A stretch of DNA of 40,737 nt, taken from Candidatus Zixiibacteriota bacterium. Its GTDB lineage: Bacteria > Zixibacteria > MSB-5A5 > JAABVY01 > JAHJOQ01. Under the pieces are notes generated by a model, which worked only from the letters and a program-made list of their open reading frames with translations, was not told the DNA's origin and made no database searches. The translations under genes were made by a program, and so were the position numbers. The stretch spans positions 1-40,737 of the forward strand of contig JAHJOQ010000088.1 of the NCBI GenBank assembly GCA_018820315.1. The letters run 5' to 3'. Shown here in pieces: positions 17,766-40,572 of this stretch (position 1 is its first letter; every line of letters starts with the position of its first letter).

Positions 17766-18512
17766 TTGAATTTTCGCAACATTCCTCAGCAGCTCATCCC
17801 CCTCGCTATCCTTTTCGCGGCAGCTCTTGCTGCCCTGATAGTGGCCCGCCAGCTTCTAGTGCCAGACTCCTTCGGAGAGTACAGCCATTACAGGGCAGAT
17901 GCTGTGGATGAGATTGCGTCACTTGATATATCGTACGCGGGCTCCAACGCCTGCTTTGATTGTCACGATGACATATTCGAGATCAAGCAGGAATCGAATC
18001 ACTCGGGGCTCACCTGCGAGGTCTGTCATGGCCCTGCTGCCGAACATGTTGATGCTCCCGATGAATTCACTCCGAGCGCCCCACGTGGTCGAGGTTACTG
18101 CCCGCTGTGTCACGGGTACAATCCGTCGAGACCGTCAGGATTTCCACAAATATTGGCTGAATTACACAATCCAGGCAGGGCATGCATGACATGCCATGAT
18201 CCTCACAACCCGGTACTTCCACACGCGCCGGAAGAATGCAGCGCATGCCACCGTGAAATCTCCAATCAGAAGATGGTATCGCACCACGCCACTCTCACAT
18301 GTACGACCTGCCATGTCGTTCCGGAGGATCACTGGATCAATCCAAGGTTCGTGCGAGCAGAGAAACCATCGACCAGAGAACTCTGTGGGGGTTGTCACTC
18401 TGAGGATGCCGACAGTCCGAGAGAAATACCGCGGATTGATCTCAATGCACACGGAGAACGATACCTTTGCTGGGACTGCCACTACCCGCACCATCCGGAG
18501 GCAAATCAATGA
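17766..18512 (+). CDS. Membrane-anchored octaheme c-type cytochrome
   Basis: The 248-residue product has an N-terminal transmembrane anchor or uncleaved signal (LIPLAILFAAALAALIVARQ) and eight CxxCH heme sites, with first Cys at residues 63, 84, 112, 140, 158, 179, 207 and 235. A TTG start is used; it directly precedes the hydrophobic segment and no ATG is available. The stop overlaps the ATG of the Fe-S gene (ATGA), so translation is coupled. With the following NrfC- and NrfD-like genes it forms a three-subunit complex of the Nrf/Psr type that would pass electrons between menaquinone and periplasmic acceptors. Several additional His residues (SHHA, YPHHPE) can serve as distal ligands. The direction of electron flow cannot be told. 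Confidence 0.88.
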   Translation: MNFRNIPQQLIPLAILFAAALAALIVARQLLVPDSFGEYSHYRADAVDEIASLDISYAGSNACFDCHDDIFEIKQESNHSGLTCEVCHGPAAEHVDAPDEFTPSAPRGRGYCPLCHGYNPSRPSGFPQILAELHNPGRACMTCHDPHNPVLPHAPEECSACHREISNQKMVSHHATLTCTTCHVVPEDHWINPRFVRAEKPSTRELCGGCHSEDADSPREIPRIDLNAHGERYLCWDCHYPHHPEANQ

Positions 18513-19282
18513 AAGACGACAAGCCGGGTATCTCTCGCAGAGAGTTTATTGCGAACACAACACGCAAGCTGCCAGGACTCCTGCTGATTTGCTCGACGAT
18601 TGGAGCAAAGCAGCTTCTGTCAGATACTGATGACACTCACTATGATCCCACCCAGCACAATTATGCGATGGGAATTGATATTCACAAGTGTATAGGCTGT
18701 GGCCGCTGCTCTGACGCGTGCAAGAAAGAGAACAAGGTCCCGACCGAGCCGTTCTTTTTCCGCACGTGGGTAGAAAGATATATTATAGCTGCCGATGGAG
18801 AGGCAATCGTGGACAGCCCGAATGGTGGAATCGACGGATTCCCTGAGGCGAAGCATGGCGCGGATGTATTGCGGTCGTTCTTTGTTCCAAAACTCTGTAA
18901 CCACTGTGCCAACCCGCCCTGCGTACAGGTCTGTCCGGTCGGTGCGACTTTTTCGAGCCGCGATGGTGTAGTGCTGGTCGACGACAACTACTGTGTCGGC
19001 TGCCGATACTGTATTCAAGCCTGCCCTTATGGAGCAAGATATTTGCACCCGACCAAGATGGTGGCCGACAAATGCACTTTCTGCTATCATCGCATTGTAA
19101 GGGGCCTTCTGCCTGCCTGTGTTGAGGTCTGTCCGACTCAGGCGCGGGTGTTCGGTGAGATCGGCAAGCAGAGCAGTCCGTTACGACGGTTCCTGAGGTT
19201 TAACGATGTTTCCGTTCTCAAGCCGGGGCTCAACACCAAGCCAAAGGTTTATTATGCAGGGGCAGACGGGGAGGTCAGATAG
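18509..19282 (+). CDS. Tat-exported ferredoxin subunit with four [4Fe-4S] motifs (NrfC/PsrB-like)
   Basis: The 257-residue product starts at ATG 18509, preceded by CGGAGG. SRREFIANTTRKLPG is a twin-arginine signal, so it folds in the cytoplasm and acts on the periplasmic side. Four cysteine groups are visible: CIGCGRCSDAC, CNHCANPPCVQVC, CVGCRYCIQACP and CTFCYHRIVRGLLPACVEVC, giving 16 Cys as in DmsB/NrfC/HybA. It should connect the octaheme cytochrome with the NrfD-type quinone protein. No catalytic molybdopterin subunit is encoded nearby, so the module looks like a pure electron conduit. Confidence 0.92.
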   Translation: MKDDKPGISRREFIANTTRKLPGLLLICSTIGAKQLLSDTDDTHYDPTQHNYAMGIDIHKCIGCGRCSDACKKENKVPTEPFFFRTWVERYIIAADGEAIVDSPNGGIDGFPEAKHGADVLRSFFVPKLCNHCANPPCVQVCPVGATFSSRDGVVLVDDNYCVGCRYCIQACPYGARYLHPTKMVADKCTFCYHRIVRGLLPACVEVCPTQARVFGEIGKQSSPLRRFLRFNDVSVLKPGLNTKPKVYYAGADGEVR

Positions 19283-19285
19283 ACA

Positions 19286-20515
19286 ATGCCAGCGAGTTTG
19301 ATTCATATTCTGGCCGATCTTCAGGGTACAGTGGGATATGTCTATCCAAACGAATTCGAGTTGCACTGGGAACTGTTGATCGTAGTTTATCCGTATCTTA
19401 CGGGACTTGTGGCCGGTGCGTTCATCCTTGCATCGCTCAAAGCCGTGTTCAACGTGAATGCTCTGCAGCCGGTTTACAGACTCTCTCTGTTGTCGGCCCT
19501 CTCTTTCATGATAATCGCACCGCTTCCGCTCCTGGCACACCTCGGGCATCCGGAAAGATCTTATGAGATGTTTCTGACCCCGCACACGCAATCGGCGATG
19601 GCAATGTTTGGGTTTGTGTATGCCTGGTATCTGATGGTGGTACTGCTGCTGGAAATCTGGTTCGATTATCGTGAAGACATTGTAGGATGGTCGAAGAAGA
19701 AGACTGGCCTGATGAAATACGTTTACCTTCTCTTAAGCCTCGGATCGAGGGATGTTTCGGAAAAGTCAGTCAGATTCGACCACAAAGCTGGCAAGTTCAT
19801 TACTATCATCGGGATTCCATCCGCGTTTCTGTTGCACGGGTATGTAGGCTTCATTTTCGGGTCAGTCAAGGCAAACCCATGGTGGAGCAGCGTTCTGATG
19901 CCGATAGTGTTTCTTTTCTCTGCAATAGTGTCAGGAATCGCTCTGATGCTTCTTATCTACATGATCACCACCATGTTCAGATGGAAGCCGCTGAACATGG
20001 CCTGCCTGAACAAGCTTGCTGAATTTCTGATTCTGGCGATGATCGTCGACTTCTCGCTGGAATTACTCGATTTCATTCACCGCCTCTATGAATCGGAAGA
20101 ATCAATCGATATTTTGTCGCAGATGATCTCCAGCAGACTGTTTATAAGTCTTATCATTACTCAGATCGTGCTCGGCACTCTCTTCCCGCTGATCGCAATA
20201 ATAGTGGCGAGATTCGGGAGAGTCCCCAACGAGCTAAAACGCATTCTATATTTCCTTGGAGGCATACTCGTCCAGGTCGGCATCTTCAGCACAAGATGGA
20301 ATGTCGTTATCGGCGGACAGCTCTTCTCGAAAAGCCTTCGCGGCCTCACAGTTTACAAACTCGAATTGTTCGGACTGGAAGGTATCCTGATGACAGGGTT
20401 ACTTCTAATCTTACCATTCATCATACTATTTGCGCTGATCAAAGTCCTTCCACCGTGGTCACAGACACAGTCGCCCCCGGCAGCAGACGGCGGTCCGATT
20501 TCAGCGGAAGGATAG
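19286..20515 (+). CDS. NrfD/PsrC-type membrane quinone-interacting protein
   Basis: The 409-residue polytopic protein has about ten hydrophobic helices. GHPERSYEMFLTPHTQSAM and the preceding APLPLLAHLG match the conserved helix-loop region of NrfD/PsrC proteins, where the quinone site lies. FSTRWNVVIGGQLFSKSLRG near residue 340 is the second conserved block. The start codon follows the Fe-S stop by 3 bp, and GGGAGG lies 13 nt upstream, so it is the third gene of the operon. It would oxidise or reduce menaquinone and exchange electrons with the Fe-S subunit. Confidence 0.92.
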   Translation: MPASLIHILADLQGTVGYVYPNEFELHWELLIVVYPYLTGLVAGAFILASLKAVFNVNALQPVYRLSLLSALSFMIIAPLPLLAHLGHPERSYEMFLTPHTQSAMAMFGFVYAWYLMVVLLLEIWFDYREDIVGWSKKKTGLMKYVYLLLSLGSRDVSEKSVRFDHKAGKFITIIGIPSAFLLHGYVGFIFGSVKANPWWSSVLMPIVFLFSAIVSGIALMLLIYMITTMFRWKPLNMACLNKLAEFLILAMIVDFSLELLDFIHRLYESEESIDILSQMISSRLFISLIITQIVLGTLFPLIAIIVARFGRVPNELKRILYFLGGILVQVGIFSTRWNVVIGGQLFSKSLRGLTVYKLELFGLEGILMTGLLLILPFIILFALIKVLPPWSQTQSPPAADGGPISAEG

Positions 20516-23533: not shown

Positions 23534-24283
23534 ATGACCAAGAAAAAGAAAATCGAACCTCTTGTCCTGAAGATCGAGGGTAGTAGAATCACTACTGCCA
23601 AGTTCATGCGAATTGTCAAGAACTTCACGGCGATATTGCGCAATGTCGCAGACGAGTTGACCGAAGGGCAGGATTCCGTTACTTGGCTTATCAGTGCTGA
23701 GAAGGGGAGTCAAGTATTCAAGGCGAGTCCGGAAGCCGACGAGACGGTCGTGAGGAACCTGGAGTCGATACCCAAAACTATCTATGAGGGATTTGGATTG
23801 ATTGAAAGAGGCAGAAGGCGACCAAGAGGATTTTCTGACGCTGCACTAAAGAACGCAAATGAACTGGCCTCAGTGATTGGCAATGGTGACGGAGACATTT
23901 CGAGGGTGGCGATTAGGTACGTGGGGCAAACCAAAGACCTTTCCGTAAAGACTTCGCTGCACGTAAAGGACATTCTCGGTGTGAAAAGGACAGAGGACGG
24001 GTCTGTTGAGGGACGAGTGACAGTTCTTTCGGATAAGAGGCGTTTCAAAGTATACGTTGACGATGTGCTCACTGGTCACTCTGTACGCTGCACTGCGAGG
24101 GATGTGGACGAGGACGAACTCATCGCCACGTTCAGAAAGAGAATCGCTGTAACCGGTACTGTTCACTATCGCAGAGACAACACTCCTGTGAGGATTGAAG
24201 TAGACAACATTCGTATCCTTGGAAGGGGTGACAAGCTGCCCTCCTTTGATGATGTAAAAGGGATATTCAGGCAAGGTAATTGA
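23534..24283 (+). CDS. Unknown protein, first gene of the PIN-domain operon
   Basis: The 249-residue product is rich in Lys/Arg and acidic residues, has no signal or membrane helix, and contains no motif I recognise. The N-terminal third is mostly helical (ITTAKFMRIVKNFTAILRNV). The C-terminal part (GSVEGRVTVLSDKRRFKVYV, then RIAVTGTVHYRRDNTPVRIE) has the alternating pattern of a small beta-barrel such as an OB fold. It begins 2 bp after the transposase stop and its TGA overlaps the ATG of the PIN gene. Coupling with a PIN nuclease gene suggests an antitoxin or RNA-binding partner, but it is much larger than VapB antitoxins. No strong ribosome site is present, only AAGAAG further upstream within the transposase end. 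Confidence 0.75.
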   Translation: MTKKKKIEPLVLKIEGSRITTAKFMRIVKNFTAILRNVADELTEGQDSVTWLISAEKGSQVFKASPEADETVVRNLESIPKTIYEGFGLIERGRRRPRGFSDAALKNANELASVIGNGDGDISRVAIRYVGQTKDLSVKTSLHVKDILGVKRTEDGSVEGRVTVLSDKRRFKVYVDDVLTGHSVRCTARDVDEDELIATFRKRIAVTGTVHYRRDNTPVRIEVDNIRILGRGDKLPSFDDVKGIFRQGN

Positions 24284-24759
24284 TGATTAAACGCAGATAC
24301 TGGGACGCTTGCACGTTCCTAGGATGGTTCAACAACGAGAGCGAAAAGATTGGGAAATGTTTAGGTGTGAAGAAACTCGCCGAAGATGGCGAACTGATCA
24401 TCATTACATCTGCGATAACACTAACTGAAGTGGTCTGGCTAAAAGGCCATCCCAGACTCTCGAAAGAATCAGAAAACACTATCAGCGAATTTTTCGAGCA
24501 GCCATTCATTGCCGTTCGATCCGTTGATAGAACTATTGCTGAAGAAGCAAGAAAACTGATATGGAAACACAATGTGCAACCGAAAGATGCAATTCACGTT
24601 GCTACCGCCCTTCAATTGAAAGTGCCCGACTTCGATACGTTTGATGATGGATTGACAAAGCTTGATGGTAAGCTGGGGAATCCGAAACTTAGGATTGGAC
24701 ACCCCAATATCTCATACCAAGAATTGATTGATTTTCCAGATGAGGCGGAAGATGTCTAA
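24283..24759 (+). CDS. PIN-domain ribonuclease (VapC-like)
   Basis: The 158-residue product has the PIN acidic set: Asp in YWDACTFLGWF (residue 8), Glu in TLTEVVWLKG (about 49), Asp in QPKDAIHVATAL (about 106) and Asp in FDTFDDGL (about 124). It should cleave RNA with Mg or Mn. The ATG at 24283 shares its A with the TGA of the preceding gene, so the two proteins are made together. Likely a toxin or a processing nuclease partnered with the 249-residue protein. The C-terminal tail (NISYQELIDFPDEAEDV) is longer than in typical VapC. Confidence 0.85.
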   Translation: MIKRRYWDACTFLGWFNNESEKIGKCLGVKKLAEDGELIIITSAITLTEVVWLKGHPRLSKESENTISEFFEQPFIAVRSVDRTIAEEARKLIWKHNVQPKDAIHVATALQLKVPDFDTFDDGLTKLDGKLGNPKLRIGHPNISYQELIDFPDEAEDV

Positions 24760-25311: not shown

Positions 25312-25860
25312 TTAGCCCTTCTTCTCTTCTACTTTCTCTTTCACCGGCATGGCATGAACGCCCTTCGCCTTCATCTTCTCGAAGTCAAACTTCTCTTTCG
25401 AGCGGAACTCTTCCGGTACGTTCTCGTTGTGGCATTTCAAGCAAGTCTTCTCATCGGGCATCATTAGACCATTTTCCATCGCCAGCTTCATGTCTTTCAT
25501 GACCTTCATAGTTTTGTAATCACTACCCGGACCGTGGCAGGCCTCGCACTGGATGCCTTCGAGCAACTCGCCTTTCGCGGTGGTGCCTGTGGTATGGCAA
25601 CCAACGCACTTGGCGTCTTTCTGCTGCTCAGGCTTGAGTGCAGCAAACGCCTTCGCGTGCTTTGTCTCGAGCCATGACGGATGGACGCCATCTTTGTTGT
25701 GGCAGGAACACTTCTTATCGCCGACATACTCGTGCTTGACAACTTCCTTCTCGACCTTTTCGGCCTTCGCAGTCTTTTCGCCCTCCTGGGCTGTCGCAAT
25801 CACGAAAGTCGCGGCGACGAAGAGGATCGCTGTGAGAATGAGAGTCAATTTCTTAGCCAT
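25312..25860 (-). CDS. Small periplasmic multiheme cytochrome (c554-like) with an atypical CxCH site
   Basis: The 182-residue product has AAGGAG upstream and a signal peptide (MAKKLTLILTAILFVAATFV). Three regular heme sites are visible: CVGCH (Cys85), CEACH (Cys105) and CLKCH (Cys140). The region GDKKCSCHNKDG at 47-58 stands where the first site of c554-like proteins is expected (KKCxxCH...W..SKHA), but only one residue lies between the cysteines (CSCH, Cys51 and Cys53). The following HPSWLETKHAKAFAAL is conserved, so His68 is probably an axial ligand. The protein likely shuttles electrons in the periplasm between the inner-membrane cytochromes of the neighbouring genes and terminal acceptors. 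Confidence 0.87.
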   Translation of the reverse strand: MAKKLTLILTAILFVAATFVIATAQEGEKTAKAEKVEKEVVKHEYVGDKKCSCHNKDGVHPSWLETKHAKAFAALKPEQQKDAKCVGCHTTGTTAKGELLEGIQCEACHGPGSDYKTMKVMKDMKLAMENGLMMPDEKTCLKCHNENVPEEFRSKEKFDFEKMKAKGVHAMPVKEKVEEKKG

Positions 25861-25953: not shown

Positions 25954-25986
25954 TGTGAAAAAAATACAAAATCTGATCTGGATCAA
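25954..25986. promoter_or_regulatory. Possible CRP/FNR-type sites upstream of the small cytochrome gene
   Basis: TGTGA-N6-TACAA (25954-25969) is a partial CRP-type site. CTGATCTGGATCAA (25973-25986) differs at one position from the FNR consensus TTGAT-N4-ATCAA. Both lie 95-125 bp upstream of the ATG at 25860, a spacing similar to the perfect sites near the large cytochrome genes. Confidence 0.5.
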
Positions 25987-26081
25987 AGAAAGCTGCAGGA
26001 GTGATCTAACACCTCCTGCAGCATGTAGTTGTGTTTAGCCAATATCGATCGAGATCATGAACAGAGACCGTAATCTCTGTC

Positions 26082-26240
26082 TTAGAAGTCGATCCTGAGA
26101 TCCGATCTCAACACGAAATACTGTCCACTTTCATCACCGTAGACATTGCCACCGGCATCGTCTTTAAGATCATAGTATGACGCCCCAGCTTCCCAAATCA
26201 GACCGTGTTTGAAGAGATAGGCAAATCCGAATTGACAACC
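26082..26240 (-). pseudogene. C-terminal remnant of an outer-membrane beta-barrel protein
   Basis: Reading on beyond the TGA of the 11-heme gene, the same frame continues FGFAYLFKHGLIWEAGASYY, then DLKDDAGGN, and ends GQYFVLRSDLRIDF with a stop at 26082-26084. Alternating aromatic and polar residues, turns and a terminal Phe are the signature of the last two strands of an outer-membrane barrel (the Bam recognition signal). Only about 50 residues remain and no start codon exists, so a porin gene has been lost here, right beside the cytochromes. Confidence 0.6.
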
Positions 26241-26261
26241 CACCGGGGGCTTCGCTACCGA

Positions 26262-28202
26262 TCAGTTTCGGTCCGGCTCGTCCTTCTTTACCGTCTCATT
26301 AGCAGGAGCTTTCCCTTTCAAGCCGGACAATTCCGTGTCGGCCGGATGGTGATGCTCATACATAGTCTGGGGCATTTTCCCATTTATCCACGCGGTGTTC
26401 ATCGGATAGACAGTCGGGTTGAAGATTGTCGAGTACATGTGCCAGACCAAAATTGCAAGCATCGCGAGCCATGCCTCGTAGTAATGGATGACCAGCATGA
26501 CATCCAGCACGCCCTTCGGGAATATCGCCACGATGTAGTTATCGAACCAGAGAAAGAACCCGGTGATAATCATGACGGCGGTGCCCCATACCAGCGCCCA
26601 GTACTCAGCCTTCTCCACATAATCGAAGCGACCGAACTTGGGTTTGTCCTTCTTCCATCCGAGGTTGTAGCCCACCATATGCAGAAAATCCTCGAAATCT
26701 CTCTTCACGGGAAAAATGTCTCTTAGAAACACCGTTCCTCGCTTGCCCATGAGGTAAAACAGGTGCCACAGGGTCGTGCCGACCAACACTACCGCTGCCA
26801 CTCTGTGAATGACTCCCCGCACAGGGAATCCGCCTTCCCATCCAAAAAACCATTGCACCCAGAAAGCGTTGGAGAATCTCAGTGCAAATCCGGATATTAC
26901 CAGCACCACGAAGGACACCATCAGGAAGTTGTGCTGCCAGACCTCATTGTAGTTCATTCGCCTGACCTGCGGCTTTCGGATTACATGCTGAATCTCTTTA
27001 CGCAGATCAATCAGCCAGTGAAATACCATGGTTCCGATTATAATAAATATTGCTATGATGTATACATGTCTCACTACACCGGCCACGGGAGTCTGAGTAA
27101 TTCCGGGAGTGCCATGGATAGGAGTTTGCGCCATTTCGGATGAGATACCGGGGTGGCAGTGACCACATGTCTCTTTAAGATTATCAAAATGAATGGATGA
27201 TGTCGGATCAGTGTGCGGAAGAATCCTGTGAGCCCCGTGACAGGACGAACAATTGGCCACAGTCATATCCCCTGCCTTGCTCTTCAATCCATGATAGCTG
27301 TCGACGTACGTCTGCAGTCGTCTCGACGGAATGCCATACTTCTCATTGAGAGATGCTGATTCATGACATGGAGAGCAGGTCGCTTCAGCCAGCCGTGACG
27401 CACTGACCGGGGAGCGAGGATCGCTGGGTGAGATGATTCCGTGTTCGCCGTGGCAGTGCGTACACACCGGAGCATCCACCTCGCCCCGCAGCACGAGTTT
27501 ACCGTGAATGCCTTCCCAGTAGTCGGCCTCAGTATTCCGATGGCACTTTCCGCAGGTCTTCGGAATATTGAAGTGACTGATTGTTGATTCAGTATCATTT
27601 GGAGCCAGAATTCGGTGCGCAGTCCCGCCGGTCGAATGGCAGTCATTGCAGGTCGCAGCGGAATAGACACCACCAAGTGACGCTTTACCGTGCACACTCG
27701 TTTGATACACCTCCACCGCATGACCGTAAAGAATCTCGTGCTTCTCGGTCAAGTCTATGTCCTCATGGCAGTGACCGCATGTCTTGGGCAGATTCTGAGG
27801 ATTTGTCGAAGAAGTCTTCTCCGTTGATGGCAGGATGTCATGAGAACCGTGACAATTGGCGCATGTCGGAATATCCTGTCCATCGGGGATTCTCAATCTT
27901 CCATGCCACTGGTAAGTGGCCGCCTCATCGCCATGACATGTGCCGCAATCTACACTGGGCAATGTCTCTTCGTGGGGAAGTTCCCCGATGCTCGCGTGAC
28001 AGTCGATGCATTCAAAATCCCGATGGATTGAAGACTTGAGCACCACATCAACAGTCTGTCCGCTCTCGCCGACAGACGCATCATGGCACTCAAGACAGGT
28101 CTCTTTGCCAAAATCCATAGCGTCCTGCGAATAGGCGATACCTGCGAAAACAGTGATGGAAATGAATGTTGCGGAAATTCTCGAGATGATTGTATTTCTC
28201 AT
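26262..28202 (-). CDS. 11-heme cytochrome c fused to a b-type membrane domain (CbcL-like layout)
   Basis: The 646-residue product has a signal peptide (1-26) and a periplasmic region with eleven CxxCH sites, first Cys at 36, 65, 86, 114, 142, 185, 217, 247, 276, 318 and 346. The C-terminal region (about 378-610) has four or more hydrophobic helices with His residues in HNFLMVSFVVLVISGFALRF, HRVAAVVLVGTTLWHLFYL and HYYEAWLAMLAILVWHMYS, as in cytochrome b561 / Ni-Fe hydrogenase b-type subunits. The combination resembles the Geobacter quinol oxidase CbcL, which sends electrons from menaquinol to the periplasm. GAGG lies 11 nt before the ATG. A perfect CRP-type palindrome lies about 106 bp upstream. 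The NapC-like gene lies upstream on the same strand. Confidence 0.9.
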   Translation of the reverse strand: MRNTIISRISATFISITVFAGIAYSQDAMDFGKETCLECHDASVGESGQTVDVVLKSSIHRDFECIDCHASIGELPHEETLPSVDCGTCHGDEAATYQWHGRLRIPDGQDIPTCANCHGSHDILPSTEKTSSTNPQNLPKTCGHCHEDIDLTEKHEILYGHAVEVYQTSVHGKASLGGVYSAATCNDCHSTGGTAHRILAPNDTESTISHFNIPKTCGKCHRNTEADYWEGIHGKLVLRGEVDAPVCTHCHGEHGIISPSDPRSPVSASRLAEATCSPCHESASLNEKYGIPSRRLQTYVDSYHGLKSKAGDMTVANCSSCHGAHRILPHTDPTSSIHFDNLKETCGHCHPGISSEMAQTPIHGTPGITQTPVAGVVRHVYIIAIFIIIGTMVFHWLIDLRKEIQHVIRKPQVRRMNYNEVWQHNFLMVSFVVLVISGFALRFSNAFWVQWFFGWEGGFPVRGVIHRVAAVVLVGTTLWHLFYLMGKRGTVFLRDIFPVKRDFEDFLHMVGYNLGWKKDKPKFGRFDYVEKAEYWALVWGTAVMIITGFFLWFDNYIVAIFPKGVLDVMLVIHYYEAWLAMLAILVWHMYSTIFNPTVYPMNTAWINGKMPQTMYEHHHPADTELSGLKGKAPANETVKKDEPDRN

Positions 28203-28300
28203 AACGTCTTATCCTCGAAGTGCTTCATCATCAGATATGCATCCGAGCTTCAACAAGCAAGACAAATATGACGTTTTTTCTCCTGCATGTCAACAGGAAT

Positions 28301-28316
28301 TGTGAAAAAGATCACA
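28301..28316. promoter_or_regulatory. Perfect CRP/FNR-family palindrome
   Basis: TGTGAAAAAGATCACA matches the TGTGA-N6-TCACA consensus at all ten fixed positions. Its centre is about 106 bp before the ATG of the 11-heme gene (28202), in the 178-bp gap behind the NapC-like gene. It suggests that this gene has its own regulated promoter. Confidence 0.75.
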
Positions 28317-28380
28317 TGTACAACTAGAGTGACATTGGCCACATTTAGATCGAGGCAATCAATTCGAGTACCGCAAAGCT

Positions 28381-29898
28381 CTAATAACCGGTATCAGGAG
28401 TGTGGCATTCTGTACATTTCACATCCCGCCACATCTCGTCTATATCTTCGGGGTGCTTGAAGTCGATGCCGGCGATGTCACTTGCGAGTTCCTCGACTTT
28501 CTCAGATGGTCCCTGAGCGATGATCAGGTGACAGGTCTCACACGAATGCGATATTGCCTTTCCCTCCGAGTTCTGCATCATGCCGTCGTGACATCGAAAA
28601 CAGCCATCATTGACGAAATGGCTCAGATTGTTTTCGCGCTGGCGGTAGTCTGTGCGCATTTCAGGGAAGAAGCTGGCGTCGTAGATTGTTTTCAACATAT
28701 CTGCCGCTTGCTCAATCGAAGTCTTCGCAGAATCTGCAAATGCAGGAAACTTTGACTTGTAGTATTCAAAAAGACCAGATTCAATTGCAGCGAGAGCCTC
28801 TTCCTTGGTCGAGTAGTCAGCGTTGAGAAGGCCCAGCCCCACCTGCCGGATGTAAGGAAGTCTCGTAGATATGCTTCCTGATGAAAGAGCCAGATTGATC
28901 GATTTGGCTGGGGGAAGGAAAGCATGGCTTGGCCTGTTGTGGCAGTCCATGCAGTCGAACTTCCTGATCTCAGTCGCCGGATCATTGATGTCCGGAATAT
29001 CTTCTGACGGATCAGTGTAGATTACAGTTTCGCCTTCCGAAGTGACGAGTCGTACCCACGGAATATTTTCGCGTTTGGGATCGGTAGCAATATATTCGAC
29101 ATTGTTCGCTGAGAGCATGTGCCAGTGAATACCTCCGACTTCCCCTGTACGCGGGTTTCCACCACCGATTTTCATGAGCAACTTAGTCGTCCATGGAGAG
29201 TTCTGCTCGTCCGTTTTGTAGTATGTATGCGTGATCATTTTCTCGCCATAGAACTGACGTGGCCAATGGCATCCCTCGCAGGTCTCTTGAGCCGGGCGAA
29301 GACTATGTACGGGTGTTTCAATTGGGCGAGAGAATGTATTAAGAGCGGTAGCAAACAACTGCCGTATGCCGTCAAACTTGTATTTTACCCGGAATGACGC
29401 TCCCGGACCTATGTGACACTTTGCGCATGCAACTCGCGCATGAGCCGAATTGTGATAGGTCACGTTCTGTGGGCCCATGACTTCATGACACGTTTCCCCA
29501 CAAAACTCAGTCGACTCGGTGGCGTCGTACGCCCTTGTGCCACCGTAAGCCGAGGCTATTATGAGAATTGCTGTTAACAGGAGAAACCGTCGGAGATTTC
29601 TGACATATGCCGGATCATATGGATCTATTGCAAGATTGAATTTGACTTTCTCGCCTCTTCGTCGCGCCGCTCTAACCTGAAGCCAGACAGAAATTAAGAA
29701 GAGCAGAACACCGACAACGCCTATAGATGGCACGATTATGAAGGTCAGAAGAGGAAGGTAGGGATTGTCTTCACTGCTGCCGACGTCAATAAGAAACAGC
29801 ATCACAAACAGGAAGCCCGAGACAAGAATCAATGAGCCACCGATCGCGGCGAGTGGGTGTCTGAACAGTGTCCGTCTTCGTATCATCACTTCAGCCAT
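28381..29898 (-). CDS. NapC/NrfH-like membrane cytochrome with seven heme sites
   Basis: The 505-residue product has three N-terminal hydrophobic helices (14-38, 48-74, 103-120), the last being the NapC-type anchor. Heme sites are CGETCH (Cys133, CxxxCH), CAKCH 158, CEGCH 207, CMDCH 316, CFRCH 433, CETCH 453 and CTECH 495. The opening FCGETCHEVMGPQNVTYHNSA and the following HARVACAKCHIGPG are characteristic of NapC/NirT-type quinol dehydrogenases, where the first site commonly has three spacer residues. It would accept electrons from menaquinol and feed soluble or outer-membrane cytochromes. AGGAG precedes the ATG. It lies upstream of, and on the same strand as, the 11-heme gene. Confidence 0.9.
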   Translation of the reverse strand: MAEVMIRRRTLFRHPLAAIGGSLILVSGFLFVMLFLIDVGSSEDNPYLPLLTFIIVPSIGVVGVLLFLISVWLQVRAARRRGEKVKFNLAIDPYDPAYVRNLRRFLLLTAILIIASAYGGTRAYDATESTEFCGETCHEVMGPQNVTYHNSAHARVACAKCHIGPGASFRVKYKFDGIRQLFATALNTFSRPIETPVHSLRPAQETCEGCHWPRQFYGEKMITHTYYKTDEQNSPWTTKLLMKIGGGNPRTGEVGGIHWHMLSANNVEYIATDPKRENIPWVRLVTSEGETVIYTDPSEDIPDINDPATEIRKFDCMDCHNRPSHAFLPPAKSINLALSSGSISTRLPYIRQVGLGLLNADYSTKEEALAAIESGLFEYYKSKFPAFADSAKTSIEQAADMLKTIYDASFFPEMRTDYRQRENNLSHFVNDGCFRCHDGMMQNSEGKAISHSCETCHLIIAQGPSEKVEELASDIAGIDFKHPEDIDEMWRDVKCTECHTPDTGY

Positions 29899-29920
29899 TA
29901 GCTCGCTCCTATAGCAAAAA

Positions 29921-29936
29921 AATGAAATGCCTCACA
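29921..29936. promoter_or_regulatory. Degenerate CRP/FNR-type half-palindrome
   Basis: On the minus strand TGTGA-GGCATT-TCATT matches eight of ten consensus positions. It lies only 23-38 bp before the ATG of the NapC-like gene, so if real it would act differently from the distal sites. The rest of the 29937-30189 gap shows no gene. Confidence 0.35.
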
Positions 29937-30189
29937 AGAATACAAGATCAGTCCGATTACTGCAAGCGGAAAACACGCCAATTGTCTCACCTAAGAACGA
30001 CATGTAACAAGTTTGCCGGAAGTTATCAGCATTAACAGGAGCACGGCTACAATAATCCCGGTAAACCGTTATAAATTAGAGACATAACACATGAATACGA
30101 TTGACACCAGAATCCATTGCCCTTAACAAGCAACCTGGCCGTGGATTCTCTAATTGAGGTCCTTAATGTACGATAAAATCAGTCTTTAT

Positions 30190-30205
30190 TGTGAAAAGTA
30201 TCACA
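30190..30205. promoter_or_regulatory. Perfect CRP/FNR-family palindrome
   Basis: TGTGAAAAGTATCACA matches all ten fixed positions of TGTGA-N6-TCACA. It lies about 118 bp upstream of the ATG at 30316, nearly the same distance as the site before the 11-heme gene. Confidence 0.75.
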
Positions 30206-30315
30206 TTTTCATTGACTAATACAGGAGATCATCTATTTTGTATCCCAATGTCGGCCGACCTGCTTTGCGACGCGAAATGAACCCTTGGAGCTTGTGTTGT
30301 GTCTGGAGATTTGAT

Positions 30316-33099
30316 ATGAGCACCTGTCTGAAATGGCTTCTGGCGGCGGTACTTGTTACGACCTTTGGATTTGCACCGGTGTTCGCGCAGTCTATCGAAG
30401 ACTGCATAATGTGCCATGAAGACGAGGAACTGACTAAGGAACGGAACGGCAAGGAGGTTTCACTATTCATAGACCTCAGTGTATACGAGAAGACGGTTCA
30501 TGGCGGGTTCGACTGCGTTGATTGTCACCAGGATCTATCAGGCGCAGATTTCCCTCATGACGAGGTGCTGGAACTTGTCGACTGCTCGATGTGCCACGAT
30601 GACATTGCATCCATTTATGACGGAAGCCTGCACGGAAAGAAAGTAAGAGAGGGGGAGCCGCTTGCCCCTCATTGCTGGGATTGTCATGGCGCCCACGACA
30701 TTTTTCCACCCAGTTCGCCAATTTCGAGAGTTACCAAATTCAACATTCCATATATGTGTGGATCGTGCCACAAAGAGGGCACTGCTGTCACCCAGAAATA
30801 CGATATTCCTAAAGACAGCATCCTCACGCACTACTCTGAGAGTATTCATGGAGTTGGCCTCTACCAGATGGGGCTGACGGTTACGGCGGTCTGTAGCGAT
30901 TGTCATACGGCTCACAATGTCCTTCCACACACCGATCCAAGATCGTCTATTTACAGAGAAAATGTTCCGAAGACGTGCGAGAAATGCCACGGGCAGATTG
31001 AGGAAGTTCACCGAAAGGTCATCCGTGGAGAAGTATGGAGAAAAGAGCCGGACAAAGTCCCGATCTGCGTCGACTGCCACTCTCCGCATGAAATCCGGCA
31101 AGTCTTCTACGATGAGGGAATCTCGAACAAAGACTGCTTGAATTGCCATCAGAAGAAGGATCTCGTGATGGTATCCGACGGGGACACAGTCTCACTCTAT
31201 GTAGAGTCTGAAGAGCTTTACGGCTCTATGCACAGAGGTGTAACATGTGCACAGTGTCATACCGGAGCGAGTCTTGAACATGACCGTCCCTGTGAAACAG
31301 TTGCTGATAAAGTGGACTGCTCCATTTGTCACGCCGAAGTTGAGGCGATGTACTTCAGCGGCATTCATGGATCGCTTGCGGAGCGAGGGGACAAGAAGGC
31401 GCCCGACTGCACCGACTGTCACGGTGTTCACGGCGTACTCGGAAAGACAGACGACAAATCCCCGACTTTCCCGATAAACGTGCCGCAGCTCTGCGGGAAT
31501 TGTCACCGTGAAGGCATGCAGGCTTCCGAGCGATATGCCAACGGCGAGCGGGATGTTGTGGAAGAATACTCCATGGGAATCCATGGCAAGGGGCTGCTCG
31601 AGAGTGGCCTGGTGGTGACAGCAATGTGCACCGACTGCCACACTGCACACATGGAGCTTCCGCCATCTGATCCGAGATCGACGGTTAATAGGGATAACAT
31701 CGCCGCGACCTGCGCAACGTGCCACAATGGCATTTATGAGCAGTTCTCGAAGAGTATTCACTCACCACTGGTCACTCACACGGAGGAACGTCTGCCCGTC
31801 TGCAACGATTGTCATCAGTCGCACACTATCATCCGCGCTGATCAGGTCGGATTCAGACTCAAAATAATGAATCAGTGTGGGAAGTGCCACGCGGATGTAA
31901 CGGAAACATATTTCGAGACATTCCACGGCAAGGTTTCGAAGCTCGGCTATGCTGCGGCAGCCAAGTGCTATGACTGTCACGGTGCGCACAACATCCTGCC
32001 ACCGGTGAATACCCATTCGACGTTGTCACGACAAAACATCGTGGCAACATGTGCGAAGTGTCATCCCGGATCGCACAGGCAGTTCGCGGGGTATCTTACA
32101 CATGCGACTCATCACGATCGCGCCAAGTATCCGATTCTATTCTATACATTCTGGTTCATGACCTCTCTCCTGCTCGGGACTCTCATTATCGCCGGCACGC
32201 ACACTCTCCTCTGGATGCCGAAGTCATTCCAGATGATGAGGGAGCATAAGGCTCTGCGCAGTAAATATCACGGCCACCTTGAATACAGACGGTTCAAACC
32301 GCTACATAGTGGGCTCCATTTCCTGGTCGTTATCAGTTTCCTGGGACTCGCAGTGACCGGCATGACCCTGAAATTCTCATATCTTGGATGGGCGCGATGG
32401 CTCTCTGGGATGCTCGGTGGCTTTGAATCAGCGGGCTATATTCACAGGATGTGTGCTATTATCACGTTCTTCTACTTCATAGCTCACATTGTCGATCGAA
32501 TAGTGACCAAGGTATCATCGAAGAAGAGCTGGAAAGATGTCCTCACAGGATCAAACTCGATGCTGCCTAACAAGAATGACTGGCGCGAGTTCAAGGCCAC
32601 TATCAAGTGGTTCTTCGGCGCGGGACCCCGTCCCAATTACGGCCGCTGGACCTATTGGGAAAAATTCGACTATTTCGCAGTCTTCTGGGGAGTCGCAATA
32701 ATCGGATCGACAGGGCTTGTACTCTGGTTCCCGGAGTTTTTCACACTGTTCCTGCCGGGATGGATCATCAATGTTGCGACAATCATCCACTCAGACGAGG
32801 CCCTGCTCGCGGTGGCATTCATATTCACCGTGCATTTCTTCAACACTCATTTCCGCCCCGACAAATTCCCGATGGATACGGTCATATTCACCGGCCGAGT
32901 ACCGCTTGAAGAACTCAAGCAGGATCGTCCCGGCGAATACCGCGAACTTGTCGAATCGCGTCAGATCAAAAAGCACCTTGTAGAACCGCTGCCGCCCGTG
33001 CTGGTGAAATTCATCAGAGTATTCGGATCCGTAGCGCTATTCATCGGACTGTCGCTAATCATTTTGATTATCTACGCAGAGATATTTGGATACAGATAG
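30316..33099 (+). CDS. 19-heme cytochrome c fused to a b-type membrane domain
   Basis: The 927-residue product starts at ATG 30316 (GGAG 9 nt upstream) with a signal peptide ending FAPVFAQS. A longer frame back to TTG 30238 lacks a ribosome site. The periplasmic part holds nineteen CxxCH sites over about 580 residues. Hemes 1-8 and 9-16 form two copies of one module with almost identical spacing, and hemes 17-19 look like part of a third. The membrane part has [50 protein letters not shown] and [21 protein letters not shown], matching the b-type domain of the 11-heme protein, plus a last helix ([20 protein letters not shown]). It is likely a menaquinol-linked conduit able to store many electrons. 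Divergent from the NapC-like gene. Confidence 0.9.
30397..31821 (+). repeat. Internal duplication of an 8-heme module
   Basis: Distances between successive heme cysteines in hemes 1-8 are 37, 23, 30, 28, 45, 28 and 30 residues. In hemes 9-16 they are 37, 24, 30, 28, 45, 28 and 30. Shared sequence blocks include YEKTVHGG / [17 protein letters not shown] / [17 protein letters not shown] / GNCHREG and [12 protein letters not shown] / [12 protein letters not shown]. The two halves (30397-31105 and 31129-31821) diverged after duplication. Confidence 0.9.
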
Positions 33100-37002: not shown

Positions 37003-40000
37003 ATGAGAACGACAGCATCGAAGATTAGTAATGACAACATGTCAGCCGCAACCCTGCGACTCTGTCTGGCTTGCCTGGCAATTGTCCTTGCGCTCGGAAT
37101 CTCTGACGTTAACGCAGGGCAAATGCAGTACACCTCCGAATTCTCACAATCTGATTTTCAACTCGACGAAGCTAATGGCTTCGATATCGTCCGTATGCGT
37201 CAGTGTGACTATCTCACCAATCTGGGGCAGCCGTGGCTTCCGTGCAAGGTATTAAGAATTGCCCTGCCGCAAGGATTGAATGTGCAATCACTCCGCGTAG
37301 TATCTTCGGATGAAGTGGTCTTGCCGGGGACATATTCCATCTTCCCCGCTCAGCCTCCACTGAGAATAAGCGAATCGACGGATGATGCAGTCTTCATCGA
37401 ACCGGATGTTTCAGTCTATGCATCGAGTGACCGCTATCCCTCTGAGATGGCTCGATTCGTATCACAATCTGACGTTGCTGGGCAGGCATTCGCGACAGTA
37501 AAAATTTGCCCGTTGCAATATGTTCCTTCAGAGAAGAAACTGATCCTGCAGACTTCGGTTACATTCATACTCGAAGGAACCGATGATTACGTCTGCGGCG
37601 ATTATCTCTCCCCTGCAGCTTCTCAGAAGAGCAGACTCGTTTACGAGAGACTGCTTAGCGAGATCGCATCCAATCCCGAGGACGCTAATCCAATCGTTGC
37701 GACTCCCGACAAGATGTCGACAACTATGCTCCCAACAGGACCGTTTGACCACGTGATCATAGCGAATTCGACCGATGCACCCTATTACTCCGATCTGGTC
37801 GACTGGCACAACAAGAAGGGTGTGAGAGATACGGTTGTCACTACGACATATATATACGGCACCTACAGCGGTAGCAATAATCAGGAGAAGATTCGCAATT
37901 TCGTTATCGATGCCCATGACAACTGGGGCACGATCTACTTCCTGATTGGTGGAGAGCATGGGGATGTGCCATTCAAATCGAAGATTTACGAGGGCGAGAC
38001 TATCCCAAGTGATCATTATTACGCGGACTATGACGACGACTGGGATGTCGAGGTCTTCGTCGGGCGAGTGACTGCAGATGATCCGACGCAGATACAGCGA
38101 TTCATCGACAAAGTCCTGAAATACGAAATCGATCCGGAGTTATCGAACTACATTCTTGATGCCACTATTCTCGGAATGGACCTTACAATCGCAACTGACC
38201 CGCCATACTACACATTGACTGCAGGTGAGGAACTTAAAGAACTGATCGACACCGCATATATTCCCTCGAACTTCGATGTAATCAAGATATATGACAGCCA
38301 GTCCAGCAATCATCTCTCTGATTTGATAAGCGCGATGAATGACGGGCAGAATCTCTTCAATCATTGCGATCACAGCAACTACAGCGTAATGGGCACGGGT
38401 GACCGGAATCACGGCCAGTATATCAGCAGCAACAATGTAGATGCATTCACGAATACAGGCAGAATGAGTGTAATCTTCTCGATAGGCTGTCATGCAAATG
38501 AAATGGATTATAATGACTGCATAGCCGAACACTTTGTAATCTACAACGACCTGAAGGGTGGCGTCGCCTTTACCGGCAACACGCGCAGCGGCTGGTTCTA
38601 TGTCGGCGATCCGCTTTCGCTGTCGTCGGCGATGGACATATACTGGTGGGAAGCGCTTTTCAGCGGGAGCATGTACCGATTGGGCGATGCAATGGCGTAT
38701 GCGAAGAACAGTTGCCCCGGCTCCGGTATCTGGCAGTATTGTCAATACACGCTCAGCCTTCTCGGAGAACCGGAAATGCCGGTTTGGACAGATTCTCCGG
38801 ACAGCTTCACTGTCTCGTATCCACCACTCCTGCCGACAGGATCATCGCAGTTTGCAGTGCATGTCGATGAATTCGGCGGCGGAGTGGTCGAAGCCGCTTA
38901 TGTCTGCTTGTGGATCGATGGCGAAGTCTTCGAGACCGGCTACACGAACAGCTTAGGAAATGTGACTCTCATACCCGCACCGGAGTCGCTCGGTGAGATG
39001 CATGTCACCGTCACGAAACACAATTTCTTGCCGTATCAGAACACTGCCGAGGTCACCGATGTCAATCTTCCTCCGCTGTGTCAATGCCCCGGTGATACGA
39101 GCATATTCCTCTGCGACCTTGCAGAGGTCTGCTTCCCGGTTGGCTGCTATGATCCGAACGGTAATCTCCAGTCGGGTCCGACACTGCTTTCCGGTCCCGG
39201 CGAAATCGCCAACGGTGAATGGTGCTATATGCCATCGGGCAGCGAGACGGTCGCACTGACTATCGAGTGTATCGATTCGGAAGGTCTGGAGTGTCAGAGC
39301 ACATTCGATGTCATGATCCGCGTTAATGTTGCGCCGACCTGCATTCCGCCAGCCGACACGACCTACGTCCAATGTGTTCCGGCTATGGTTTCACGAATGG
39401 TGTCGGTGTTCGATCCCGACGGCAATATAGTCGGGTGCGAAGTCATATCAGGACCGGGAGCCATGGTTCATGGCGCGTGGAAATATACACCTCCGATGGG
39501 TGTGGACACTGCCGATGTAACGGTGAGATGCACTGATGAATGCGGTGAATTCTGCGAGACGAGTTTTCAGGTCATTTTCGATATCAACTATGCGCCCGTC
39601 TGCGTGCAACCGACAGATACAACAGTCGTGCACTGCGGTGCACCGTCGGCAATAAGTTTGCCAGTCGTATCGTTCGATCCCGATGGTGGCACTCCTGATT
39701 GCGAGATCACTGTCGGACCGGGCTCGATAGTCGATGGATACTGGCAGTATACTCCATCGATGAGTGAGATTGTTTACGTGACTATTGCGTGCACCGATGA
39801 TTGCGGAGCTTTCTGCGAGAATACATTTACGGTAGGTTTCGATCTTAATGATCCTCCGGTCTGCTCGGATGAGAGAGATACCACCGTACTCGCCTGCTCG
39901 GAAGATCAGATGGATATTCAGCTGGCAACTGTAGATCCGAACGACAACATAGTCGATTGGGAGATTCTTGAGGGTCCCGGATCCGTTGCCGATGGATATT

Positions 40001-40572
40001 GGCAATATGCCCCGTCGATCGGCGATACGGTGGATGTAACGGTGCGCTGCACCGATGACTGCGGTGAATATTGTGATGAAAGTTTCCGAGCCATTTTTGA
40101 ATTCAACTCGCCGCCGGTCTGCGGATCGAGAGGCGATACAACAGTCTCGATGGTGTCCCTTGAGACGATATTCGTTCCGGTGTCGGCGACGGATCCAGAC
40201 GGCAACCTTGCCGGTTGCTCTGTGACCGAAGGTCCGGGTGAGGTTGTAGATGGCAACTGGCAATACACTCCGACCGGCCCGGACACTCTTGACATAACCG
40301 TCACATTCGTTGATGAATGCGCTGCGACCTGCGATCTCCAATTCACTGTCACGGTTCTCATGTTTGACTGCGGCGATGTCACCAGCGATGGTGCAACAGA
40401 CATTGATGATGTCGTCTACCTGATTGCGTATATCTTCACAGGTGGCCCCGCCCCCGACCCTGTGGAGGCAGGAGATGTTGACTGTTCCGGCGCTGTAGAT
40501 ATAGATGACGCGGTTTACCTGATAGCTTTCATCTTTTCGGGTGGTCCTGCGCCGTGTGAGGGCTGCCAGTAG
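37003..40572 (+). CDS. Secreted gingipain-like C25 cysteine peptidase with five repeats and a dockerin-like tail
   Basis: The 1189-residue product has an N-terminal signal (LRLCLACLAIVLALGISDVNA). The start at 37003 or the Met 12 codons later are both possible. Residues ~50-240 are a propeptide-like domain and ~245-595 the C25 catalytic domain: DHVIIANSTDAPYYSDLVDW (start of the fold), WGTIYFLIGGEHGDVP, LFNHCDHSNY with the likely catalytic His457, and VIFSIGCHANEMDY with the likely catalytic Cys495. A CarboxypepD-like domain follows (~610-687), then five ~86-residue repeats (688-1120) and a double dockerin-like module (DIDDVVYLIAYIFTGGPAP, DIDDAVYLIAFIFSGGPAP) ending in CEGCQ. It is an extracellular endopeptidase, probably surface-attached through its tail. 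Confidence 0.9.
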   Translation: MRTTASKISNDNMSAATLRLCLACLAIVLALGISDVNAGQMQYTSEFSQSDFQLDEANGFDIVRMRQCDYLTNLGQPWLPCKVLRIALPQGLNVQSLRVVSSDEVVLPGTYSIFPAQPPLRISESTDDAVFIEPDVSVYASSDRYPSEMARFVSQSDVAGQAFATVKICPLQYVPSEKKLILQTSVTFILEGTDDYVCGDYLSPAASQKSRLVYERLLSEIASNPEDANPIVATPDKMSTTMLPTGPFDHVIIANSTDAPYYSDLVDWHNKKGVRDTVVTTTYIYGTYSGSNNQEKIRNFVIDAHDNWGTIYFLIGGEHGDVPFKSKIYEGETIPSDHYYADYDDDWDVEVFVGRVTADDPTQIQRFIDKVLKYEIDPELSNYILDATILGMDLTIATDPPYYTLTAGEELKELIDTAYIPSNFDVIKIYDSQSSNHLSDLISAMNDGQNLFNHCDHSNYSVMGTGDRNHGQYISSNNVDAFTNTGRMSVIFSIGCHANEMDYNDCIAEHFVIYNDLKGGVAFTGNTRSGWFYVGDPLSLSSAMDIYWWEALFSGSMYRLGDAMAYAKNSCPGSGIWQYCQYTLSLLGEPEMPVWTDSPDSFTVSYPPLLPTGSSQFAVHVDEFGGGVVEAAYVCLWIDGEVFETGYTNSLGNVTLIPAPESLGEMHVTVTKHNFLPYQNTAEVTDVNLPPLCQCPGDTSIFLCDLAEVCFPVGCYDPNGNLQSGPTLLSGPGEIANGEWCYMPSGSETVALTIECIDSEGLECQSTFDVMIRVNVAPTCIPPADTTYVQCVPAMVSRMVSVFDPDGNIVGCEVISGPGAMVHGAWKYTPPMGVDTADVTVRCTDECGEFCETSFQVIFDINYAPVCVQPTDTTVVHCGAPSAISLPVVSFDPDGGTPDCEITVGPGSIVDGYWQYTPSMSEIVYVTIACTDDCGAFCENTFTVGFDLNDPPVCSDERDTTVLACSEDQMDIQLATVDPNDNIVDWEILEGPGSVADGYWQYAPSIGDTVDVTVRCTDDCGEYCDESFRAIFEFNSPPVCGSRGDTTVSMVSLETIFVPVSATDPDGNLAGCSVTEGPGEVVDGNWQYTPTGPDTLDITVTFVDECAATCDLQFTVTVLMFDCGDVTSDGATDIDDVVYLIAYIFTGGPAPDPVEAGDVDCSGAVDIDDAVYLIAFIFSGGPAPCEGCQ
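39064..40362 (+). repeat. Five tandem Cys-rich ~86-residue repeats in the C25 peptidase
   Basis: Each unit starts N-x-(P/A)-PxC, continues DTTV, then DPDGN, a GPG turn, W-x-Y-x-P and ends TDxCGxxC..F. Units begin at about residues 688, 775, 862, 949 and 1035. Cys pairs suggest disulfides. The units look like bacterial Ig-like domains. Confidence 0.8.

Follow-up and report, generated by a model that had tools for sequence, protein, structure and literature searches.

The two perfect TGTGA-N6-TCACA palindromes located upstream of an 11-heme and a 19-heme cytochrome c gene in a 40,737-nucleotide contig of a Candidatus Zixiibacteriota bacterium (hereafter the window, i.e., the whole stretch of DNA analysed) are, as judged from sequence, very probably Rex operators, Rex being a winged-helix repressor that binds NAD(H) and senses the NADH/NAD+ balance of the cell. 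This reading is favored because the palindromes match the known Rex operator, the genome encodes Rex with a perfect operator of its own, the companion targets are respiratory, and the sites are conserved before orthologous cytochrome genes.

Cytochrome genes and palindromes of the window

The 11-heme gene (26262..28202, minus strand) and the 19-heme gene (30316..33099, plus strand; the start at 30316 was picked by signal peptide and ribosome-binding site) encode proteins of 646 and 927 amino acids, respectively, each with a C-terminal membrane domain similar to b561/formate dehydrogenase gamma; a count of CxxCH motifs yields the 11 and 19 hemes that had been claimed. The best named relatives of the 19-heme protein come from Candidatus Zixiibacteriota MAGs, the closest one compared being 73% identical. 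Two further cytochrome genes lie nearby on the minus strand, a NapC/NrfH-like gene with 6 CxxCH motifs (28381..29898) and a gene for a small multiheme cytochrome of 182 amino acids (25312..25860). Elsewhere in the window, a small ORF resembling a PIN-domain protein (24280-24759) and another small ORF just upstream of it (23534-24283) are a possible toxin-antitoxin pair, and a Peptidase C25 protein with weak PorU-like and dockerin matches is encoded at 37003-40572.

A pattern search of the window identifies only two perfect (10-of-10) copies of TGTGA-N6-TCACA, TGTGAAAAAGATCACA at 28301-28316 and TGTGAAAAGTATCACA at 30190-30205. The palindrome centres lie about 106 bp from the start codon of the 11-heme gene (28202, minus strand) and about 118 bp from that of the 19-heme gene (30316, plus strand), in agreement with the sequence-only reading, which had placed perfect sites at these distances. 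The 3.78 Mb genome contains 14 perfect copies, compared to 4 copies of the reversed control pattern. Given that 10 of the 14 are intergenic (the other 4 lie within long ORFs, as read from ORF maps) even though coding sequence makes up about 85% of the window, the equal frequency in coding DNA that the sequence-only reading had named as evidence against its claim is not observed. When two mismatches are allowed, 35 matches are found in the window vs 23 expected, an excess that is inflated because heme-motif codons (TGTCAT, TGTCAC and the like) account for several of the matches in the 19-heme gene; at 30757-31990, such codons resemble operator half-sites and raise the motif counts within cytochrome genes.

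Rex, its operator and its predicted targets

The Rex protein encoded in this genome (at C62) contains a winged helix and an NAD(H)-binding domain (PF06971 and PF02629, both above cut-off), scores 263 bits with the NCBIfam Rex models against a cut-off of 126, and has solved Rex structures as its best phmmer matches (2e-47). It carries the recognition helix AQVRKDLS, the wing TRGLGY and the nucleotide motif GVGNIG; Rex is present in 53 of the 58 genomes searched. The consensus of the Rex operator is TTGTGAA-N4-TTCACAA (PMC5317091; PMC2883068), and the only perfect 18-mer of this type in the genome, TTGTGAAACGTTTCACAA, is located about 36 bp before rex itself. When the regions upstream of rex are compared in 30 Zixibacteria, counting this genome, 28 contain a Rex-type site, and in 26 of these the site has one mismatch or none.

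Twenty-five sites upstream of rex, that of this genome among them, were combined into a matrix, with the cytochrome sites excluded. On the window, this matrix ranks the two palindromes second and first: the operator upstream of the 11-heme gene (TTGTGAAAAAGATCACAT, 28300..28317, unstranded) scores 16.0 bits and the one upstream of the 19-heme gene (TTGTGAAAAGTATCACAT, 30189..30206, unstranded) 17.9 bits, with the next match at 9.2. Each of them has two mismatches to the Rex consensus. Genome-wide, the consensus with at most two mismatches occurs 33 times vs 9 for the control.

That the palindromes arose by chance and have no function is exceedingly improbable. The 4 perfect genome copies inside coding regions, together with the 4 copies of the reversed control, are the observations in its favor, yet the coding copies have low scores on the Rex matrix (2.0-10.6 bits), 0.025 sites of at least 16.0 bits are expected per shuffled window whereas the window has two, both of them upstream of cytochrome genes, and the sites recur before orthologous genes. 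Thus, the two palindromes look like real control sites that stand out above the chance expectation.

Sites of at least 15 bits precede nuoA-D, a nuoE/nuoF-like pair and the genes for ETF-QO, HdrC/HdrB-like and HdrA-like proteins, as well as the genes for citrate synthase and an Rrf2-family regulator, and rex. The list includes the targets expected for Rex, i.e., genes of NADH oxidation and energy metabolism (nuoA-D, nuoE/F-like, ETF-QO, Hdr subunits, citrate synthase), along with some further sites whose downstream genes show no clear link to energy metabolism; having been compiled from pattern searches, it is incomplete. Both cytochromes are thereby placed in one predicted regulon with complex I, ETF-QO and Hdr subunits.

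The sites are conserved among relatives. At Zixibacteria loci containing the 19-heme gene, a site of at least 8 bits is present within 200 bp of the 11- or 19-heme gene start in 11 of 20 cases, compared to 1 of 34 for the non-heme ORFs of the same loci, some of which may not be genes; the Fisher p value of 1.7e-5 is only a guide because related genomes are not phylogenetically independent samples. In the remaining 9 of the 20 relatives, no site reaches 8 bits. Three orthologous sites are near-perfect (27.2 bits in G055, 23.0 in G030 and 17.4 in G016). In several relatives, the 11- and 19-heme genes are co-directional and a site precedes the 11-heme gene; the two genes of the window are separated, with one site for each. 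Together, the chance tests and the conservation in relatives support the common regulon that had been proposed for the 11- and 19-heme genes. Upstream of 19-heme homologs in other phyla, only scattered matches were found, and conservation beyond Zixibacteria is not claimed.

CRP/FNR-type regulators and the weaker sites

The sequence-only reading had taken the palindromes for CRP/FNR-type operators, shared by all four cytochrome genes, and had called for a search for the CRP/FNR homolog. The TGTGA-N6-TCACA core alone cannot separate CRP from Rex sites, and the ATCACA half of the window sites is equally CRP-like and Rex-like. Moreover, the 16-bp core is that of Escherichia coli CRP and of the Desulfovibrio HcpR motif wTGTGAnnnnnnTCACAw (PMC1274295), and a profile search does identify one CRP/FNR-family protein with a helix-turn-helix (HTH) domain, an HcpR-like protein that is the only one in the genome with an HTH_Crp_2 match above cut-off; a second match, in a 79-aa frame, is weak and falls below it. 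Binding of the palindromes by this single regulator in response to oxygen, NO or cAMP is nonetheless very doubtful. Its recognition helix, GTASETLSR, has Ser in place of CRP Arg180, the residue that recognizes TGTGA. As reported by Rodionov et al. (PMC1274295), Arg180 goes with G, and Ser or Pro with T, at the third motif position, and by this correlation a TTGAC-type box is predicted for the HcpR-like protein. A perfect TTGACCCAGGTCAA does stand immediately after its gene and ahead of a ferredoxin gene (G000:C14:9191-9204; L101 near 5190, L220). The Ser at position 180 and this adjoining box, as for HcpR1-type regulators, make it unlikely that the palindromes are sites of this protein; boxes of the FNR/HcpR1 type (TTGAC/T-N4-G/ATCAA) are absent from both palindromes, being perfect at C14:9191 and one letter off at 25973. 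PF00325 has no match in the genome, and no HTH was found in the frames of the other three cNMP-binding ORFs. The rex-derived matrix, by contrast, accounts for the palindromes, and its best site stands at rex itself. Thus, a CRP/FNR-family homolog exists, but with a residue 180 that does not fit TGTGA; with no regulator that has a matching recognition helix, and with the HcpR-like protein having a box of its own, both the CRP/FNR and the HcpR readings were rejected in favor of Rex.

The TTGACCCAGGTCAA site beside the genes for the HcpR-like protein and ferredoxin looks like an HcpR1 circuit. As for the cNMP-binding ORFs, one (G000:C103, L102 2063-4039) has an N-terminal cyclic-nucleotide-binding domain and runs on into aspartase/fumarase-like sequence, and two stand-alone ORFs without HTH (L103 1366-1833 and L104 1514-1999) are found beside hydrogenase-type genes.

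Of the four cytochrome genes, only those for the 11- and 19-heme proteins are preceded by a supported site. The weak match AAATGAAATGCCTCACAA claimed at 29920 for the NapC-like gene (29920..29937, unstranded) scores 5.2 bits on the Rex matrix, a score that shuffled windows yield about 3.7 times each, i.e., a chance level; this gene has no supported Rex site of its own and shares an intergenic region with the operator at 30189. The box claimed at 25972 before the small cytochrome gene (CTGATCTGGATCAA, 25973..25986, unstranded) is one letter off TTGAT-N4-ATCAA and is indeed FNR/HcpR-like on comparison with the HcpR-type sites of PMC545781, but it is an operator of a different type from the palindromes, with -9.0 bits on the Rex matrix. 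Both weaker sites thus fail on this matrix, the small cytochrome gene has no Rex site, and the claim that all four genes carry the site is rejected. The box at 25973-25986 may put the small cytochrome in a separate regulon. No strong Rex site is found near the module of an Fe-S protein and an NrfD membrane subunit (18467-20515).

Direction of control and related systems

Characterized Rex binds DNA with NAD+ and is released by NADH (PMC2883068), and the known Rex proteins are repressors (PMC2883068; PMC13077300). By analogy, we infer Rex binding, the response to NADH and the direction of control at the two promoters. At low NADH, Rex would bind the site beside the -35 box and keep the expression of both large cytochromes low, along with that of complex I, ETF-QO and Hdr subunits; NADH accumulation would displace Rex from DNA, and more electron-disposal machinery would be made. 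The sign of the effect at the two cytochrome promoters is the least certain step of this mechanism. The predicted sigma-70-like promoters, TTGACA-17-CATATT (28265..28293, minus strand) and TTGACT-16-TATTTT (30212..30239, plus strand), are consensus matches only; their -35 boxes start 6 bp and 5 bp, respectively, downstream of the operators. Because the operators thus immediately precede the predicted -35 boxes instead of overlapping or following the promoter, which is the arrangement at rex, repression is not certain and is taken here as the default reading. Such a position would suit contact with RNA polymerase, so that Rex could bind both sites and activate the cytochrome promoters at low NADH, and in relatives G006, G004 and G016 the distance to a TTGCCA/TTGCTA/TTGACT box is similar. 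This possibility is unlikely given that known Rex proteins repress, that promoter matches in this region occur at chance frequency and that operator positions vary among the other relatives. It is similarly improbable, if slightly more so, that Zixibacteria have a conserved wiring in which Rex ties both of these very large multiheme cytochromes, with their fused b-type membrane domains, directly to the cytoplasmic NADH/NAD+ ratio and acts positively at their promoters. Repression by Rex remains the preferred reading, under which the NADH/NAD+ ratio would be a testable signal for two very large multiheme cytochromes of a little-studied phylum.

Rex-like sites before multiheme cytochromes have already been predicted, and the window is a further case in another phylum. 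In Calderihabitans maritimus, a carboxydotrophic thermophile, Rex-like TTGTGA-N6-TCACAA motifs found through CO-induced transcripts are predicted before three multiheme cytochrome (mhc) genes (PMC7306483); these genes resemble those of the window in being multiheme cytochrome genes with Rex-like sites. The Rex regulon of Ravcheev et al. 2012, as presented in PMC5317091 and other papers, shares with the present one the consensus TTGTGAA-N4-TTCACAA, the autoregulation of rex and, according to PMC5317091, targets in NADH oxidation and energy metabolism; compared to what is relayed there, the host here belongs to Zixibacteria, the window sites have two mismatches each, and among the targets are 11- and 19-heme cytochromes to which b-type membrane domains are fused. 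In Caldithrix abyssi, likewise a member of an uncommon phylum, a Rex-like site is located 38 bp before rex and controls a hydrogenase operon, with no cytochrome target reported there (PMC5317091). HcpR of Desulfovibrio shares the TTGTGA-N6-TCACAA consensus and energy-metabolism targets (PMC545781; PMC1274295); its motif, however, depends on Arg180, whereas in the present genome the HcpR-like protein carries Ser, and the site next to its gene is TTGACC-N2-GGTCAA. The same confusion arose in Staphylococcus aureus, where a CRP/FNR-like motif of ArcR proved to be a Rex target (PMC2883068); that overlap was settled by experiment, whereas the case of the window is known from sequence.
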